Assembly: GCA_009781635.1 (NCBI GenBank)
Contig: WQXU01000024.1
Location: 1-37,523 of the forward strand
Direction of reading: 5' to 3'
Source: Treponema sp.
Lineage (GTDB): Bacteria > Spirochaetota > Spirochaetia > Treponematales > Breznakiellaceae
Length of the DNA: 37,523 nt
The notes beneath the pieces were generated by a model that saw only the letters and a list, made by a program, of their open reading frames with translations, made no database searches and had not been told where the DNA came from. Every line of letters begins with the position of its first letter. The stretch's first letter is position 1. This document shows positions 7,038-37,347 of the stretch, piece after piece. The translations under genes were made by a program, and so were the position numbers.

Positions 7038-9833
7038 ATGAATAATACTGAAACAACACAGGCTGCATCCCAGTCAGAGGCCGCCCAAACTCTTTTAAAA
7101 AATCTTCAGGAAACGTTAAATGAAGAAAAATGGACAAGGGCGAGTCTTGGTAATTATTCGACAAACCAGTTCAAGGAACTTGATTTAATACTGAAAACCG
7201 CGCGGCAGGAAAAAGTTCTTGATGAATTAAAAAAAACCTGCGATGAGCATTTATCCCACACAAGAAACAGCATTATTGCGCTTTATTTATCCGGTATGAT
7301 AGCCCTTTCCCGCCAGATTATCGACGATTCTGCAATGATAAACCTTGTATCAATTTTCCTTGACAATCACAAATGGGGAATCGTCAAGTATCTGTGTGAA
7401 AGGATACTCGATCACGGAGAATCAAAGTATGCGCTTAGAACTCTTGCAGACTGCTGTAAAAATGATAATGAAGAAGATAAGGTTTACGAGATTTGGGAAA
7501 GACTTGTAAAAGTGGATTTTGAAGAAGCCGATATCGTAAAATCTCTTGCCGAGTATTATGAGAAGCGGGATAACAGGGAAGATTCCATAGATTATTACAA
7601 GAAAGCTCTGCACCGCTACATTAACAAGGGTAGCTTTTCTAATATTAAAGAAATCTGGGAAAAACTTATCAATGTAAATACTGATGATATCGATTTCTTT
7701 CTGCATATCCAGAAAAAAATAGCCAAGTCCGTAAGTGAAGACAAGGCTGTTATTCTTTTAAATGATCTGTACGCAAAATACAAAAGCAAAGACATTGATA
7801 TTGCGATCAACATCCTTAAAATTATTCTGGAATATGATGAGAAAGACGTTCACGGACGCAGGGAAATAATTGACTGTTTCAGAAAAAAATACTCATCTCA
7901 CAGCCAGCTTGAAGAATATATCCGTATCTCCAATCTTTCGCAGAATTACCGCGCAGTGCATCAGGCGATTGCCGATTTTGAAAAACATATCGCCTTTGAC
8001 AAAGGCAACTTTGTTTATCACCGTACATGGGGCGTAGGACGTATAGCAAACATAGTCGGCGATGAAATAAAAATAGACTTCTCCAAAAAAAGAGGTCATT
8101 CAATGGCTTTAAAAATGGCCGTTGACGCTCTTCAGACTCTTACAAAAGATCATATTTGGGTATTAAAGGCGACAAAGAAAAAAGAAGATTTAAGGGAAAT
8201 GATCTTAAAAGAAAAAGAAAAGGATTCCAACGATAATATAGTATTGACTTTAAAAATAATTATTAGAAGTTTCGGCAATGCCTGTGACATGAAAAGGATA
8301 AAAGCCGAAATTTCTCCTGCGCTGCTTACAACGGGCGAATGGTCAACATGGAGTTCAAAAGCTCGTGATATATTAAAATCGAATCCCGATTTTGGCATCA
8401 GCGCTGAAAACAGCGATGTATTTATTGTGCGTGAAAGGCCTGTCAGCGTTACTGAAAAATTATATAATGAGTTTACGGCAAAAAAGAATTTCTTTGACAA
8501 GGCGGCGGCCATCCGCGATTATGTAAACAATAAAAATGCCGATCCTGATTCAGAATATTTTACAGAAATGTTGTCGTATTTCACTTCATTCATCCGTCTT
8601 GCACCTGGCGCAGATTCGAATGACAGAAGAAAAAAGGACAGTTCAAATCAGAATGCCGAACACGCATTATTTTCATTTCTTATAATAAGCGAACTTGCGC
8701 TTAACAAAAATTATACACATTTAAAATCGGCTCTCTCATCAGGTTTTGCGGATATTTTTTCCGGAATAAAAGATGTTCCGTCTTTATTTAAGAATTTAAA
8801 AGACGCAAAATTAAGAGCGGAGTTTTTAAATAATATAAAATTATATATAAGCCAGTGGCCTGATATTTATATAAAATTATTTCCGTATTCACAACTGCCG
8901 TCAATAACAGAACAGCTGGAAGAAGCCGGCTTTTCCGGCAAGCTGTCGGCATTATGCCATGAGTGCTTTGAAAGGCACCGCGATAACCGTGAAGCGGTTG
9001 TCTGGTTTTACAGGAATGCAAGGGGAAAACCATGGTTTAAAGATGCAAATATCGGCATAGAAAAGCAGCTTATCACGCTTATACATATAATGGACATTAC
9101 CTACCGTGACATTGAAAACTCAAAGGACACTGTAGAAAACAGAAAAATAAACAAACTTGTTCACAATATCCTTTTTAAAGACGGCGATTTGGCGTCGTTT
9201 ATCAGTGAAGCAGACGAAGATGCAATTATCAGAATCTTCACATTTATGAATGATGTAAAAGATCTTGACCCGCAGGATAAGCTTAATCTGCGTTCCAGAA
9301 TACTGGACAGGTATCCTGGATTCAAATTTTTCGGAGATACCGGAAAGAAAGTATCAAGGGGCCTTATGGTCACAAAAGCCATGTACGAAGAGAAAAAGAA
9401 ACAGCTTATGCATATCATGGATGTTGAAGTTCCTGCCAACTCCAAGGAAATTGAATATGCCCTGTCCCTCGGCGATCTTCGTGAAAATGCGGAATACAAG
9501 GCCGCAAAGGAAAAACAGGAGCAGCTTAATTCGCAGGTTGCCAAGCTTAAGGAAGATATCGACAGAGCTCAGCTTTTCGATCCAAATTCTGTAAGCACAT
9601 CCAGGGTTTCCTTTGGCACAAAGGTTGTTCTTTTCAATGAAAAAACCGGCAGCAAGGAAGAATTTACAATTCTTGGACCGTGGGAATCCGATCCAAATAA
9701 CAATATTATTTCCTATCTTTCTCCGTTTGGAAGTGCTATAATTAATAAGACAGCAGGTGAAAAATTTGATTTTACAATTAACGAAGAAAAGGTTTCTTAT
9801 CTGGTTGAAAATATTACAGCAGCCGTAATTTGA
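7038..9833 (+). CDS. greA: giant GreA-type transcription elongation factor with N-terminal extension
   Basis: Only the last 155 of 931 residues (from about 777) are a normal GreA: a coiled-coil with the acidic tip GDLRENAEYKAA (Asp813 and Glu816 match the residues that enter the RNA polymerase channel), then a GreA/GreB C-terminal domain. GreA stimulates cleavage of backtracked transcripts. Residues 1-310 are helical, repeat-like. At 325-345 the segment FVYHRTWGVGRI, followed by IKIDF and KMA, resembles the RNA polymerase-interacting fold of CarD/CdnL and Mfd. Residues 450-770 are again helical. Long GreA proteins are known in Treponema, Borrelia and, shorter, Chlamydia. AGGAG at 7024-7028 gives a good ribosome site. 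It is second in the operon. Confidence 0.9.
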   Translation: MNNTETTQAASQSEAAQTLLKNLQETLNEEKWTRASLGNYSTNQFKELDLILKTARQEKVLDELKKTCDEHLSHTRNSIIALYLSGMIALSRQIIDDSAMINLVSIFLDNHKWGIVKYLCERILDHGESKYALRTLADCCKNDNEEDKVYEIWERLVKVDFEEADIVKSLAEYYEKRDNREDSIDYYKKALHRYINKGSFSNIKEIWEKLINVNTDDIDFFLHIQKKIAKSVSEDKAVILLNDLYAKYKSKDIDIAINILKIILEYDEKDVHGRREIIDCFRKKYSSHSQLEEYIRISNLSQNYRAVHQAIADFEKHIAFDKGNFVYHRTWGVGRIANIVGDEIKIDFSKKRGHSMALKMAVDALQTLTKDHIWVLKATKKKEDLREMILKEKEKDSNDNIVLTLKIIIRSFGNACDMKRIKAEISPALLTTGEWSTWSSKARDILKSNPDFGISAENSDVFIVRERPVSVTEKLYNEFTAKKNFFDKAAAIRDYVNNKNADPDSEYFTEMLSYFTSFIRLAPGADSNDRRKKDSSNQNAEHALFSFLIISELALNKNYTHLKSALSSGFADIFSGIKDVPSLFKNLKDAKLRAEFLNNIKLYISQWPDIYIKLFPYSQLPSITEQLEEAGFSGKLSALCHECFERHRDNREAVVWFYRNARGKPWFKDANIGIEKQLITLIHIMDITYRDIENSKDTVENRKINKLVHNILFKDGDLASFISEADEDAIIRIFTFMNDVKDLDPQDKLNLRSRILDRYPGFKFFGDTGKKVSRGLMVTKAMYEEKKKQLMHIMDVEVPANSKEIEYALSLGDLRENAEYKAAKEKQEQLNSQVAKLKEDIDRAQLFDPNSVSTSRVSFGTKVVLFNEKTGSKEEFTILGPWESDPNNNIISYLSPFGSAIINKTAGEKFDFTINEEKVSYLVENITAAVI

Positions 9834-31200: not shown

Positions 31201-32020
31201 AAAGACATTTATAAGCAAATTAATAAGAAGGGCTAAACCTCAGTTTATACTGCCTGTTTTTCCGGGAACAAACAGCGAGTATGATATTGCAAGGGCGATT
31301 GAAAAAGCCGGCGGAAAAGCGCAGATGTTTGTTATACGCAATTTAACTTCGGCATGTACCGCGCAAAGCATTGCAGGCTTTAAGAAAGCTGTAGTAAAAG
31401 CGCAGGCAATTGTAATTCCAGGAGGTTTTTCAGGCGCAGATGAACCTGACAACTCCGGAAAATATATAACTGCTTTTATGAAAAATCCTTTTATTTGTGA
31501 CGCTGTTATGGAACTTTTAAATAAAAGATATGGTCTTATCTGCGGAATAGGCACAGGATTTCACGCTCTTTTAAAACTTGGCCTTTTACCCTACGGCGAA
31601 ATACGCGAACAGACAGAAAATTCGCCCACGCTCTCATTTAATGCAACAGGCAGGCATCAATGCGCTCTTGTAAACACAAAGCTTGTTTCAAATAAATCTC
31701 CGTGGCTTTCCCATCTTGAGCTTGAGGGGCAATACATGGTTCCGCTCTCCCGCGGCGAAGGGCGTTTTATTGCAAAAGAGGAAATAGTAAGCGACCTTGC
31801 AGACAGGGGACAGATAGCAACTATTTATGTTGATTTTGACGGTAATATAAACCGGAATCAAAGTAATTCATCTTCAGTAATTGAAGGCATAACATCTTTT
31901 GACGGGCGTATATTCGGGCGAATAGCGCATAACGAGCGTTTAGACGACGGTCTTTATAAAAACATCCCGGGAATAAGAAAAATGGATATTTTTAAGGGCG
32001 CTGTAAAATATTTTGATTAA
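28253..32020 (+). CDS. purL: phosphoribosylformylglycinamidine synthase with inactive-looking glutaminase domain
   Basis: PurL makes FGAM from FGAR, ATP and an amide nitrogen in purine synthesis. This 1255-residue single chain is of the long type found in Firmicutes and treponemes. The synthase core is intact: TYWSDHCRHT near 218, NETHNHPTEIEPFGG near 315-330, GGRTGRDGIGGATGSS, and KRCNDFGAGGVSV. The C-terminal amidotransferase domain (from about 1000) keeps its outline, with FPGTNSEYD, IPGGFSG and SNKSPWL, but the nucleophile elbow GICNGFQ reads GIGTGFH (Gly1100 for Cys) and HGEGR reads RGEGR (Arg1167 for His); Glu1169 stays. It therefore probably uses free ammonia or a separate glutaminase. 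It converges on purH. Confidence 0.95.
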   Translation: MNVLKMYVEKRPEFADEAASVASDLRLGLQIDKIDKIRIINRYLAQGISCEDFNEAKKTVFSEAPVDIVYDELPSFENAYVLAVEYLPGQFDQRADSCAQCIAIATGKERPDIHCAKIYLIYGDLNDDDFLKIKSWLINPVENREISLEIPQTLVQNYNEASDIEIIGNFIFLSDEELDQLRITMGLAMDLSDIKFCQEYFKNEKRSPSVTEIRVLDTYWSDHCRHTTFLTELDNIQIDDEHILESYKNYLLLRETTGRKEAPVTLMDMATIGAKHLKQKGLLNELDESYEINACSVKIKVDVNGKNKNWLLMFKNETHNHPTEIEPFGGAATCLGGAIRDPLSGRAFVYQAMRVTGAGNPLQSSSDTLQGKLPQRKICRTAAEGYSSYGNQIGLATGHVIEIYHPGYTAKRMETGAVIAAAPSKNVIRKKPGKNDVVILLGGRTGRDGIGGATGSSKSHTQVSLETCAADVQKGNAPDERKLQRFFRDSRVTRLIKRCNDFGAGGVSVSVGELADGLLINLDKVPIKYEGLDGTEIAISESQERMSLVVAKRNAKKFIALAAKENLEATVIAKVTKEPFLVMNWRGKTIVNLSRKFISSNGAQKRADVHINNLNVQELIKQDEHFHDKNALFNFAGNLNICSQKGLVDSFDSCIGAATVISPFGGKYQLTPAQAMAAKIPLLKGDTNTCSIMSLGFDPYISSVSPYHGAVFAVVHSVAKIIAAGGSRKKSWLSFQEYFEKLRSDPARWGKPVSALLGALDAQLGLEIAAIGGKDSMAGSYAVNDNEEINVPPALLSFAISVTHTDKIVTPEFKKAGSAVFLLKTPFSVFEKCDFSALRDYFDTVEDILSKENTLSAWAAGSGGIAEAIIKMCMGNKLGFCAKKDLSSGLGFSGFIIEVDNEYLAFAGTNRNNFKAELLGRTKTEYTLKTPSLEIPFEELQREWEKTLEPVYPGSIKQEYNTEVSDSNPLQINEGHGLLPRRKKTFISKLIRRAKPQFILPVFPGTNSEYDIARAIEKAGGKAQMFVIRNLTSACTAQSIAGFKKAVVKAQAIVIPGGFSGADEPDNSGKYITAFMKNPFICDAVMELLNKRYGLICGIGTGFHALLKLGLLPYGEIREQTENSPTLSFNATGRHQCALVNTKLVSNKSPWLSHLELEGQYMVPLSRGEGRFIAKEEIVSDLADRGQIATIYVDFDGNINRNQSNSSSVIEGITSFDGRIFGRIAHNERLDDGLYKNIPGIRKMDIFKGAVKYFD

Positions 32021-32041: not shown

Positions 32042-33679
32042 TTAATGTTTAAAGTGACGCGTTCCTGTAAAAACAAGCGCGATCTGATGCTTATTGCAGG
32101 CCTCAATTGAAAGATCATCATTTTTGGAACCGCCCGGCTGAATTATCGCCTTTATGCCGTTTTTTGCAGCCTCTTCCACTATGTCGCTGAATGGGAAAAA
32201 AGCATCGGAAGCCAAAACCCTTGCAGGAAGACTGTCATTCCAGGGACTGCCTCCTGTGTCATGTGATTCCATAGATGCTTTTTTAAGGCATGCAGCGCTT
32301 CTTTCAAGCGCCTGTTTTGCGGGCCAAATCCGGTTTACCTGTCCCCCGCCGATGCCGGTTGCTGACTTTTCTTTTACGATCATGATGGCATTGGATTTTA
32401 CAAAAGTTACAGCCCTCATGCCGAAGATCATGTCGGCAATGTCCCCTGCTTCAGGAGCAGTCTTTGAAACCACATCCCATTTTTCAATAAATGTGCGATC
32501 GCTTTGCTGAACAAGAATGCCGCCGTCAACGGCTGTGTACTCATGCGATTCACAGGGCGCCTTGTTCATTTTTATTATGCGCAAGTTCTTTTTCTTCTTT
32601 AATATTTCAAGGGCGTCATTGTCATAGTCAGGAGCAATTACTACTTCAAGGAAAAGCTCTGCGAATCTTATGGCTGCTGCGGCGTTAACTTTTGCGTTAC
32701 ATGCAATTATGCCTCCGAATATCGAAACGGGATCGCAGGCAAATACCTTGTCGTAGGCTTTTAGCAGGGTTTCTCCAAGCGCAATTCCGCATGGTGTATT
32801 ATGCTTTACGGCAACACAGCAAATTAAAGGCCCGCTGCTGCAGGCATCCGGAACAAGACGGCGCACTTCATCCTCTCCTGCAGGAGGGTTGCCGTTAAGG
32901 CCGAAGGCGCAGGCTGCTTTCCATGCAATATCAAGATCTTTTATATTGTTATAACCAAGTTCCTTGCCGCTAATCTGTTCCATGCTGCCAAGCACGCCGG
33001 GACGATCCGTGTTAAGATATAAGGCAGCAGACTGATGACCGTTTTCACCGTAACGCAAAGACTGTCCCAATTTTAATGAAAGCGGCAGATACTCATAATA
33101 CTCGCCGTTTTCAAGCAGGTAGCGGGCAATAGCCGCATCATATGCGGATGTAAGAGCAAAAACTTTTCCTGCAAGGCGTTTCTTAAAATCATATGGAACA
33201 TTTCCGGTTTTTAAACTGTTTATGGCTTGCGTATAATCTGCAGGATCTGTAAGAACAATTACATCGCTGTGATTTTTCGCCGCGGAACGAAGCATTGCAG
33301 GTCCGCCTATATCGATAAATTCAATTGTTTGCTCAGCTGAAAGACCGGACTGAACTTTTTCAAAAAATGGATAAAGATTTACGCATACCAGATCAATTGT
33401 TCCAAGCTGCTGCTCTTTTAGCGTTTCAATATGGCTTTGTATATCTCTGCGGGCCAATAAACCTGCGTGAATTGCAGGGTGAAGTGTTTTTACACGCCCG
33501 TCAAGGCATTCCGGAAAGCCCGTAACAGATGATACATCCTTTACAGGAATTTTATTTTCTCTCAGGTAATTTGATGTGCCGCCTGTTGAAATAATCTCCC
33601 ATCCGGAATCGTTTAAAAAGGACGCCAATTCAAGGATACCTTCTTTATTAAATACGCTTATAAGTGCCTGTTTTTTCAT
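32042..33679 (-). CDS. purH: bifunctional AICAR transformylase/IMP cyclohydrolase
   Basis: PurH carries out the last two steps to IMP. The 545-residue protein has an N-terminal cyclohydrolase (KQALISVFNKEGI, STGGTSNYL, GRVKTLHPAIHAG) and a C-terminal transformylase with VKHNTPCGIA (the Lys-His pair), FVKSNAIMIVK, and SDAFFPFSD...AIIQPGGS...FTGTRHFKH. Length and motifs are normal. The stop lies 21 bases from the purL stop on the opposite strand. No Shine-Dalgarno site precedes ATG 33679; a strong promoter lies about 165 bases upstream, leaving a long leader that holds a hairpin and a small open frame. Confidence 0.96.
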   Translation of the reverse strand: MKKQALISVFNKEGILELASFLNDSGWEIISTGGTSNYLRENKIPVKDVSSVTGFPECLDGRVKTLHPAIHAGLLARRDIQSHIETLKEQQLGTIDLVCVNLYPFFEKVQSGLSAEQTIEFIDIGGPAMLRSAAKNHSDVIVLTDPADYTQAINSLKTGNVPYDFKKRLAGKVFALTSAYDAAIARYLLENGEYYEYLPLSLKLGQSLRYGENGHQSAALYLNTDRPGVLGSMEQISGKELGYNNIKDLDIAWKAACAFGLNGNPPAGEDEVRRLVPDACSSGPLICCVAVKHNTPCGIALGETLLKAYDKVFACDPVSIFGGIIACNAKVNAAAAIRFAELFLEVVIAPDYDNDALEILKKKKNLRIIKMNKAPCESHEYTAVDGGILVQQSDRTFIEKWDVVSKTAPEAGDIADMIFGMRAVTFVKSNAIMIVKEKSATGIGGGQVNRIWPAKQALERSAACLKKASMESHDTGGSPWNDSLPARVLASDAFFPFSDIVEEAAKNGIKAIIQPGGSKNDDLSIEACNKHQIALVFTGTRHFKH

Positions 33680-33878: not shown

Positions 33879-34053
33879 TAAAAAAATATCCGGATTAATT
33901 TATCATTTTTTTGCCGCTAACATACGATTATTTCATTTTTATAAAAAAATATATTAGTATAAAATTGTATAATCTATATCTTGAATTATTTGTTCATTTT
34001 TATATTATTATATGAAATAACATATTTTATTTTAATTTATTTTTGAGGTGTAC
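33879..34053 (+). promoter_or_regulatory. AT-rich upstream region of the repeat lipoprotein gene
   Basis: This stretch is very AT-rich and holds no gene. TATAAT at 33968-33973, preceded by TTG, is the best -10 box; no -35 box is visible. It would give a leader of about 74 bases. GAGGTG at 34045-34050 is the ribosome site for ATG 34054. Confidence 0.4.
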
Positions 34054-37000
34054 ATGAAAAACAACAGCACAAAAAACATTTTTGCATTGCTTGCATGCAT
34101 TATGTTTGCATTCGTTTTTTTTACAACCTGCCATAACCCAATTATGGAAAGCTGGTGGGACAATCAGGACAGGCAGACTTCTTCTGAAACCCGTGAATAT
34201 CACATTGTAAATTTCAATGTGAACGGAGGAGATCCATTTATAGAAAGCCAGTTGATAGTCCATGAAGGCAAAATCTCAAAGGTTCCTGCTATTACTAAAG
34301 CTCATTACGGGTTTGCAGGGTGGTTTAATAATACAAGCCTTTCAGGATATGCATGGGACTTTGATAAGGATACAGTATCAAATGATTTAGTCCTGTTCGC
34401 CGGATGGGTTCCTGTCTCCTACGTTGTAGAATTTGATGCAAAAGGCGGCTCATATGAAGAAAATGGCGAAGAAAAAATACCTGCTCCTCAATTTCTTCTT
34501 TACGGAACAAGGGTGAAAGAACCTCCTGCGATAAATCTTACAGCTCAGGGTTTCGGCGGCTGGTATAAAGATGATGCGTATACAAATGCTTGGAATTTCG
34601 CCTCAGACACAATAAACGAAAATATGAAATTATATGCAAGATGGAACAATGTTTACCGTACAGTCACGTTCAATTCAAACGGCGGACTTCCCCACCCTAA
34701 GGAACAGCTTATAGCTTTAGGAGGAAGAGTTGTAACGCCGCCGCCTATGAGCCTTGCAGGTCATTTCTTTGACGGCTGGTTTATGGATGAGGATCTTATG
34801 CAACTGTGGAATTTCGCTGCGGCTGTTGAAAATAACATGACCCTTTACGCTAAATGGGCTCCCATTCCTGTTTCAGTAACATTCATTACAAATGACGGAA
34901 TGCCCATCCCTTCAGCTCAGGCAATTTTAGCGGGAACTTCGGCGCACGAACCTGTTCCTATAACCCGTGAGGGACATGCCTTCGGCGGCTGGTTTGATGA
35001 TATTAGTTTTAATAATGAATGGGATTTTACCTATCCTGTAAATTCAAATTTGATCTTATACGCAAGGTGGGTACCAAGACCATGTACCGTAACATTTGCA
35101 GCAAACGGCGGTGAACCTTCACCTCCCAATCAATTGCTTGTTACAGGAACAATGATTAAAGAACCGCCGGTTATGAGTCTTGAAGGGCATGGTTTTGGCG
35201 GCTGGTATACAAGCGCAGACTTCTCAGGAAGCGCCTGGAACTTTGCTGCGGATAAAGTGCTCAATGATATAAACCTGTATGCAAGATGGAATACTCTCTA
35301 CCATGCAGTCTTTTTCAATTCAAAGGGCGGATTTCCTGAACCATCGAGCCAGCTTGTTGCCTCCGGGGGAAGGATCGTAGCTCCTCCAGCAATGAGTCTT
35401 GAAGGATATGGTTTTGGCGGCTGGTTTGCAGATGAGGATTATACTCAACCATGGAATTTCATAAGCGGTACAGTAAATAGCAATATGACCCTGTATGCTA
35501 AATGGGACACTAATCATCATACTGTTACATTTGTTGCAAATGAAGGCACCCCCGCTCCCGCACAGCAGCTTGTTGCCCATGGTTCGGATGTTACAACCCC
35601 TTCTCCCATGACAAGAGAGGGTTTTAGTTTCGGCGGCTGGTTTACAGATACAGGCTTTACAGACGAGTGGAGCTTCACCCTGGGTACAGTAACAGAACCT
35701 CTGACCCTTTACGCAAAATGGGACAGGAATATCTATAAAGTACTGTTCGATCCCAAGGGCGGATTACCAACTCCGGAACCGCTTCTGCAATTTGTGGCTT
35801 ACATGGGAATGGTCACAGAACCCCTGCCAATGAGCCGTGACGGACATGGCTTCGGCGGCTGGTTTTTAAAAGACGGTACTGCAGATAACGACTGGGGAGA
35901 GCGATGGAATTTCTTCTCGCGTATGACAGGTTTTGTAACAGAGGATATAGTTCTGTATGCAAAATGGGATTTAAACCGCCATAACTTTACTTTTATTGCA
36001 AACGGCGGCTCTCCTGCTCCTTCATCACAAGTTGTTGCTTTTAATTCATACGCTACAAGACCTGCGTCCATGGAAAGAAGCGGCCATCATTTCGGCGGCT
36101 GGTTTTTAAATGAGGATTTCTCCGGTGATTCATGGAACTTTGTAAACACTCCGGTTACAGATGATCTTACCCTTTACGCCTGGTGGATTCCGGATCATCT
36201 TATAGTTACATTTAACGCAAATGGCGGCTCTCCTGTTCCGGGAGTTCAGCATGTTATTTCCGGTTCCGGAGCAGCAAGCCCGGCGCCCATAACAAGGGAT
36301 GGCTTTACATTCGGCGGCTGGTTTAGTGATGCGGTTTTTTTAGGCAATGCGTGGAACTTTTCAACGGACATTGTATCAACAGATATGATTCTTCACGCCA
36401 AGTGGGAACGAAACCCGGCAGTATATACCGTAACATTTGAAGCTGACGGCGGTACACCTGCCCCGAATAATCAGTTAGTTGTTGAGGGCGTAAAACTTGT
36501 TGAACCACTGTCCATGTTAAAACCATTTCCTGGCGGAGGTTTTTACGGTTTCGGCGGCTGGTTTACAAATCCGGCTTTTACAGGCGAGCCATGGGTCTTT
36601 TTAAGAGAGACTGTTAATGAAAATATAACCTTGTATGCCAAATGGGGCATGCCTGTCAGCAGAGTAATATTTGAAGCAAATGAGGGAACTCCGGCTCCGG
36701 AAGATCAATATATAATTCAAGGTTCCAAGGTAAAGGAACCTCTTGCAATGAGCAGGGAAGGTTATCATTTTGGCGGCTGGTTTAATGCGAATTCTGTTTT
36801 TATCGGCAATGCCTGGAACTTCACTGACGGTATTGTTACTACAGATGAACTAAGACTGTATGCAAGATGGATCCCGAATGAGATTCCGCCCACAGAAATT
36901 ATACAGAGGGTAAGGATTCATGGGGTTTACTATGTAGATTTTGCGGGGAATTCGATTGTATACAATGGTCCTCCCGGCCCCGGCGCTTCCACCTGGCTTA

Positions 37001-37347
37001 CTCAAATACAAATAGATGCAAACAATGCTGCTATTCAAAATGTAGTAAATATTATGCTTGCTCATCCGGATTTCATACTTCAATTATCAGGCCATGCCAA
37101 TCCTACTGTACCTGGCCCTGGGCAGCCTGGTTATAATCAATCTGTATGGGAGCAGGAACTTAGAGATTTGGAGGATATCAGCGGGAAAAGAGCAAATACT
37201 GTACTTAATGTGTTTCTAAACAGGAGTATACCAGAAGATCAAATGATAAACGCAGGTTATAATGACAGGCTTTACGGCGACGGCAGCCGCGGAAGCCTTA
37301 ACCGTACCGTTGAGATAATAATTATTGAGTATCTGCCTCTTAAATAG
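34054..37347 (+). CDS. giant lipoprotein with twelve InlB-type B-repeats and an OmpA-like C-terminus
   Basis: I start at ATG 34054 (1097 residues), placed after GAGGTG; an in-frame GTG at 34048 lies in that site. The signal ends in FFTTC (Cys26 lipidated). Twelve Listeria-Bacteroides repeats of about 70-80 residues follow, each with VTF..NGG.P.P at the start, GFGGWF in the middle and LYAKW at the end. After about residue 945 comes an OmpA-like domain: VDFAGNS, LQLSGHAN at 1009-1016, SGKRANTV with Arg1046, and LNRTVEIII with Arg1084. Such domains normally bind peptidoglycan, but the Asp after GH-T/A is Asn1016 here. It is probably a surface adhesin or stalk tied to the cell wall. Confidence 0.88.
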   Translation: MKNNSTKNIFALLACIMFAFVFFTTCHNPIMESWWDNQDRQTSSETREYHIVNFNVNGGDPFIESQLIVHEGKISKVPAITKAHYGFAGWFNNTSLSGYAWDFDKDTVSNDLVLFAGWVPVSYVVEFDAKGGSYEENGEEKIPAPQFLLYGTRVKEPPAINLTAQGFGGWYKDDAYTNAWNFASDTINENMKLYARWNNVYRTVTFNSNGGLPHPKEQLIALGGRVVTPPPMSLAGHFFDGWFMDEDLMQLWNFAAAVENNMTLYAKWAPIPVSVTFITNDGMPIPSAQAILAGTSAHEPVPITREGHAFGGWFDDISFNNEWDFTYPVNSNLILYARWVPRPCTVTFAANGGEPSPPNQLLVTGTMIKEPPVMSLEGHGFGGWYTSADFSGSAWNFAADKVLNDINLYARWNTLYHAVFFNSKGGFPEPSSQLVASGGRIVAPPAMSLEGYGFGGWFADEDYTQPWNFISGTVNSNMTLYAKWDTNHHTVTFVANEGTPAPAQQLVAHGSDVTTPSPMTREGFSFGGWFTDTGFTDEWSFTLGTVTEPLTLYAKWDRNIYKVLFDPKGGLPTPEPLLQFVAYMGMVTEPLPMSRDGHGFGGWFLKDGTADNDWGERWNFFSRMTGFVTEDIVLYAKWDLNRHNFTFIANGGSPAPSSQVVAFNSYATRPASMERSGHHFGGWFLNEDFSGDSWNFVNTPVTDDLTLYAWWIPDHLIVTFNANGGSPVPGVQHVISGSGAASPAPITRDGFTFGGWFSDAVFLGNAWNFSTDIVSTDMILHAKWERNPAVYTVTFEADGGTPAPNNQLVVEGVKLVEPLSMLKPFPGGGFYGFGGWFTNPAFTGEPWVFLRETVNENITLYAKWGMPVSRVIFEANEGTPAPEDQYIIQGSKVKEPLAMSREGYHFGGWFNANSVFIGNAWNFTDGIVTTDELRLYARWIPNEIPPTEIIQRVRIHGVYYVDFAGNSIVYNGPPGPGASTWLTQIQIDANNAAIQNVVNIMLAHPDFILQLSGHANPTVPGPGQPGYNQSVWEQELRDLEDISGKRANTVLNVFLNRSIPEDQMINAGYNDRLYGDGSRGSLNRTVEIIIIEYLPLK
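34198..36876 (+). repeat. twelve tandem B-repeats, about 220 bases each
   Basis: Twelve consecutive coding units share the start ACATTT..GC.AA.GGCGG, the middle TTCGGCGGCTGGTTT and the end TATGCAAAATGG. Copies differ widely in sequence and slightly in length (one near 35860-35920 carries an insert of about ten residues), so they are old rather than freshly amplified. Confidence 0.9.

Follow-up and report, generated by a model that had tools for sequence, protein, structure and literature searches.

The PurL protein encoded in the window (the whole stretch of 37,523 nucleotides of Treponema sp. DNA that we analyzed) is a single-chain FGAM synthase whose glutaminase domain has lost its catalytic Cys and His. 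Judging from sequence comparisons, we consider it quite probable that this PurL depends on ammonia to make FGAM and retains its glutaminase domain as a structural vestige, and that it is part of a changeover from glutamine to ammonia that proceeds step by step. In a profile search, the protein matched TIGR01857 with 1642 bits, against a curated cut-off of 1057, from residue 5 to 1254, placing it among the full-length, single-chain members of this family, and the GATase_5 match covers residues 995 to 1254. The reading frame is open throughout its 1255 codons, and the synthase part is intact.

Table 1. Positions of purL, the altered glutaminase codons, and other features of the window.
Feature	Positions	Strand	Remark
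Protein ending in GreA/GreB domains	7038..9833	+	N-terminal extension of ~770 residues without Pfam match
purL, single-chain FGAM synthase (TIGR01857 type), 1255 aa	28253..32020	+	sole PurL in the genome
C-terminal glutaminase (GATase_5) domain	31217..32017	+	fold retained (predicted), catalytic residues gone
Codon 1062, Gly to Ala	31436..31438	+	conserved PGGFSGGDEP loop of the glutaminase domain
Codon 1100, GGC (Gly)	31550..31552	+	replaces nucleophile Cys
Codons 1101-1104, ACA GGA TTT CAC (Thr-Gly-Phe-His)	31553..31564	+	Asn-Gly-Phe-Gln in the family
Codon 1167, CGC (Arg)	31751..31753	+	replaces catalytic His
Codon 1169, GAA (Glu)	31757..31759	+	catalytic Glu of the triad, kept
purH	32042..33679	-	convergent with purL; later purine step, fits a working pathway
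Protein of 1099 aa with 12 Listeria-Bacteroides (Flg_new) repeats	34048..37347	+	likely surface protein

The nucleophile elbow reads GIGTGFH in the window PurL versus GICNGFQ in the family, and the His motif reads SRGEGR versus SHGEGR (HGEGR, rarely HGEGK, in relatives). Both Cys and His are kept at all 80 of 80 related, firmicute-type PurL loci from other genomes, and they are present in 23 readable PurL proteins of the same genus. Where a glutamine-hydrolysing class I amidotransferase has Cys and His, the window PurL has Gly1100 and Arg1167; with neither residue, its glutaminase domain would be unable to form the thioester. A preliminary description of this DNA had proposed both replacements, together with changes of the neighboring Asn and Gln, and the codons as read (GGC and CGC, with Thr1101 and His1104 as the neighbors) agree with it, as does the alignment of residues 1100, 1104, and 1167 with relatives, which read GICNGFQ and HGEGR. 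Sequencing error, which that description had named as what would undo its reading, or an assembly artifact has next to no probability. The relatives are draft assemblies, but the window genome is 99.3% complete with 0.33% contamination, multiple codons are affected, replacements occur at the same codon in seven further genomes of other species, some with the His lost as well, and whole domains are missing in GuaA (see below). An artifact of a single genome was rejected, as the Cys is lost in eight species.

We found the PurL glutaminase domain to be readable in 31 of the 40 species sampled in the genus. The Cys is lost in 8 of these 31 genes, with Gly, Ser, Ala, or Asn in its place, and the frames are open in all 8. 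The replacement is Gly in the window genome (G000, with His to Arg), G012 (with His to Gly), G008, G021, and G017 (with the oxyanion loop deleted), Ala in G013 (with His to Cys), Ser in G037, and Asn in G035. In the synthase-part tree, G035 clusters with the Cys-bearing G009 (99% support), distant from the other seven, for which a single clade is not rejected (p-AU 0.69). Because of this pairing, the sequences point to at least two independent losses of the Cys, of which only two are secure; the tree gave no demonstration that the losses in G000 and G037 are strictly independent. In another genus of the same family, one PurL (G050, locus L182) has kept the Cys and carries Cys in place of the catalytic His (SCGEGR). 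The literature searched contains no description of a PurL that lacks the Cys or has a dead glutaminase.

Variation of the replacing residue between species is expected, since the position would be free once the Cys is gone. It also bears on whether the domain might use a different nucleophile on glutamine, or act as a sensor of glutamine or another ligand, as retention of the fold and of the triad Glu could suggest. This is very improbable, as the replacements (Gly, Ser, Ala, and Asn) come with no new conserved residue set, the oxyanion-loop residues of G017 are gone, and the pocket residues drift.

The sequence changes are confined largely to the glutaminase domain. At 305 near-invariant positions, defined from 109 Cys-bearing PurL sequences, the window PurL is changed at 11 of the 75 that lie in the glutaminase domain and at 5 of the 230 that lie in the synthase part (Fisher p = 0.00016), and this concentration of changes is not due to chance. 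The same bias is seen in six of the other seven PurL proteins lacking the Cys, and G035 goes in the same direction without being significant, while intact members of the genus have 0 to 2 of about 75 glutaminase positions altered (4 in the divergent G030). We compared a predicted structure of this dead domain, at a mean pLDDT of 85.8, with known ones: it superposes on Salmonella PurL 1T3T (Z, 25.5; 2.8 Å over 244 residues) and on PurQ 3d54_D (Z, 23.6). In this model the fold is kept, in line with the fold-level motifs that the preliminary description had pointed out. In Salmonella PurL (StPurL), the interface between the glutaminase and synthase domains measures 6280 Å2 (PMC3815217), which by analogy provides a plausible reason why the dead domain stays.

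Early pseudogenization, in which salvage makes purine synthesis dispensable and PurL decays with its glutaminase domain first, would account for the fast evolution of this domain and for the lack of a PurL match in some members of the genus, mostly ones with incomplete genomes. However, such decay should not respect a domain border, whereas the window gene combines its open frame with 225 of 230 near-invariant synthase positions retained, the frames are open in all eight species, and purH and the purKEFMND genes are intact; we therefore regard pseudogenization as unlikely. The earlier claims that the synthase core is intact, that there is no frameshift, and that the glutaminase-dead protein is under selection as a synthase are supported by these same data and by the lack of a PurQ or a second PurL in the window genome.

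The genes purK, purE, purF, purM, purN, and purD lie together as an intact cluster on a separate contig of the window genome, with matches above the curated cut-offs. In PurF, the glutaminase Cys, Arg, Asn-Gly, and Asp are all present (NDTE in the alignment), and loss of the PurF glutaminase was rejected, as every residue checked is retained. A type I glutamine synthetase is also present, above the cut-off, so glutamine is available, and a general loss of glutamine was rejected. In PurF of G007 (L150), the Asp expected to bind glutamine in a class II glutaminase is replaced by Asn (SNTE versus SDSE).

The window genome contains no separate PurQ by TIGR01737, which answers the preliminary description's call to look for purQ, and it contains no second PurL and no match to PF00310. 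The PurL glutaminase domain, used as a query across the genus, retrieved PurL alone and no PurQ. In the window genome, PF00117 finds no class I amidotransferases besides CarA and PyrG. These results disfavor the suggestion, made in the same description, that PurL receives ammonia from another protein through its tunnel. It is quite improbable that another glutaminase docks on PurL or that a free glutaminase supplies the tunnel in trans: PurF, with its full glutaminase, could in principle release ammonia, but neither a PurQ nor a further PF00117 protein is found, and according to the structural model, the dead domain would still occupy the docking place.

The preliminary description had also spoken of purine synthesis as losing its use of glutamine. 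This would hold for the glutaminase of PurL, but it is too broad, as PurF keeps its glutaminase, and too narrow, as the changes also reach GuaA, CarA, PyrG, and GlmS. The GMP synthetase (GuaA) of the window genome (L287:1013-1999, on contig C7 of G000) has 329 to 331 aa and is without a glutaminase domain; a partner glutaminase subunit for it was not found in this genome, and no GlmS was seen there. CarA of the window genome keeps Cys and His, but Leu replaces the Gln of GICxGHQ and Ser the Asn of SQNHG, positions that we take, by E. coli CarA, to be glutamine contacting. PyrG likewise keeps Cys and His and has a Ser and an insertion within the conserved PGGFG loop.

Across the genus, a GuaA without the glutaminase domain is the only GuaA in 12 genomes, with both kinds in four, and this short form is the only GuaA in 6 of the 6 Cys-less PurL genomes in which any GuaA was found. 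The GuaA tree requires the short form to have arisen more than once, with one counted change being a contig-edge fragment (G019), and the short GuaA of G030 is a different GuaA type. In nine genomes, the only CarA copy read carries Gly for Cys and, mostly, Tyr or Asn for His. In five genomes, the only PyrG copy read is altered at Cys (now Ser or Asn) or at His (now Gln or Asn). A second type of CarA occurs in the genus (L218, L219, L220, L221, L225, and L260), with Gly for Cys, Tyr or Asn for His, and Leu for Gln (in L225, Asn), and is a bacterial counterpart of CPS1. PyrG proteins with a replaced Cys or His are found at L228, L240, L269, L301, L236, and L239, some with deletions or insertions in glutaminase loops. 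In G007, PurL is intact, but GuaA is short and both CarA and PyrG are damaged, a combination which indicates that the losses come singly, enzyme by enzyme. NadE was dropped as a further marker because it is uninformative, its short type being present in intact members of the genus too. Several genomes of the genus are incomplete, which makes absences in relatives weak evidence, and the case rests mainly on positive sequence changes.

The ammonium transporter Amt (PF00909) was found in 17 of 40 genomes of the genus. It is present in 0 of 8 genomes with a Cys-less PurL versus 15 of 23 Cys-bearing ones (Fisher p = 0.0024) and in 0 of 12 short-GuaA genomes (Fisher p = 5e-5), both values ignoring shared ancestry; against all loss types at a completeness of at least 80%, p = 6e-5, again ignoring phylogeny. 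Few losses are securely independent, so these correlations rest on few independent events, and the two to four independent contrasts for Amt are too few pairs for significance. The loss of Amt is consistent with high-ammonia life without proving it, and the missing transporter lends indirect support to an ammonia-rich habitat. From the company of their genomes, these bacteria would be treponeme-like gut spirochetes; the termite-gut spirochetes newly described in PMC13067680 all have Amt.

We propose that the AIR-synthase-like core of PurL still activates FGAR with ATP, and that free cytosolic NH3, instead of NH3 derived from glutamine, attacks the iminophosphate. The dead glutaminase domain would persist as a structural module or scaffold because of its very large interface with the synthase part. 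In a subset of this one genus, selection on glutaminase sites would be relaxed across the nucleotide enzymes, with the amide donor in nucleotide synthesis changing stepwise from glutamine to ammonia as GuaA loses its glutaminase domain, the CarA and PyrG sites erode, GlmS is no longer found, and Amt becomes dispensable. The use of NH3 by PurL, high ammonia in the habitat, and the scaffold role are all inferred. FGAM synthase, GMP synthetase, CTP synthetase, and CPS are able to use free ammonia once their glutaminase is disabled. For GMP synthetase, use of free ammonia is documented in PMC9312489; the corresponding sources are PMC3261824 for PurF and PMC4655335 for CPS1.

We lean slightly toward a wider reading, in which the lineage is abandoning glutamine as an amide donor in nucleotide and amino-sugar synthesis: PurL, GuaA, CarA, and PyrG would lose glutaminase function, GlmS would vanish, the pathways would run on free ammonia, and PurF would be among the last glutamine-dependent steps. 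Against a shift to ammonia, the PurF glutaminase and glutamine synthetase are kept, and CarA and PyrG of the window genome show pocket changes only. These bacteria probably use free ammonia itself to build a large share of the precursors of their DNA and RNA.

Glutamine amidotransferases are a textbook case of two coupled active sites joined by an ammonia tunnel. A genus with intact, half-eroded, and dead versions of four of them offers a natural series among close relatives, in which one can ask why a glutaminase domain outlives its chemistry, how a synthase adjusts to free NH3, and whether the combined loss of Amt and glutaminases is a genomic mark of high-ammonia life.

The window PurL shares its domain order, synthase core, and glutaminase fold with single-chain PurL, or FGAR-AT (TIGR01857; 1T3T). 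Unlike that family, it lacks the catalytic Cys and His, so glutamine would be unusable by the known mechanism. The short GuaA of the window genome resembles the ATPPase of the archaeal two-subunit GMP synthetase in having no fused glutaminase domain; Archaea encode a separate glutaminase subunit (PMC9312489), whereas none was found in the window genome. Archaeal PurF' proteins are, like the window PurL, purine-pathway amidotransferase homologues without the nucleophile Cys, for which ammonia dependence has been proposed (PMC3261824); they are accompanied by a Cys-bearing PurF, while the window PurL is the only copy. Human CPS1 runs on free ammonia and keeps a glutaminase-like domain that is inactive, with Cys to Ser (PMC4655335). 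The window PurL likewise retains an inactive glutaminase-like domain, but vertebrate CPS1 belongs to another pathway and has another synthase fold, and the losses described here extend to several amidotransferases within a single bacterial lineage.
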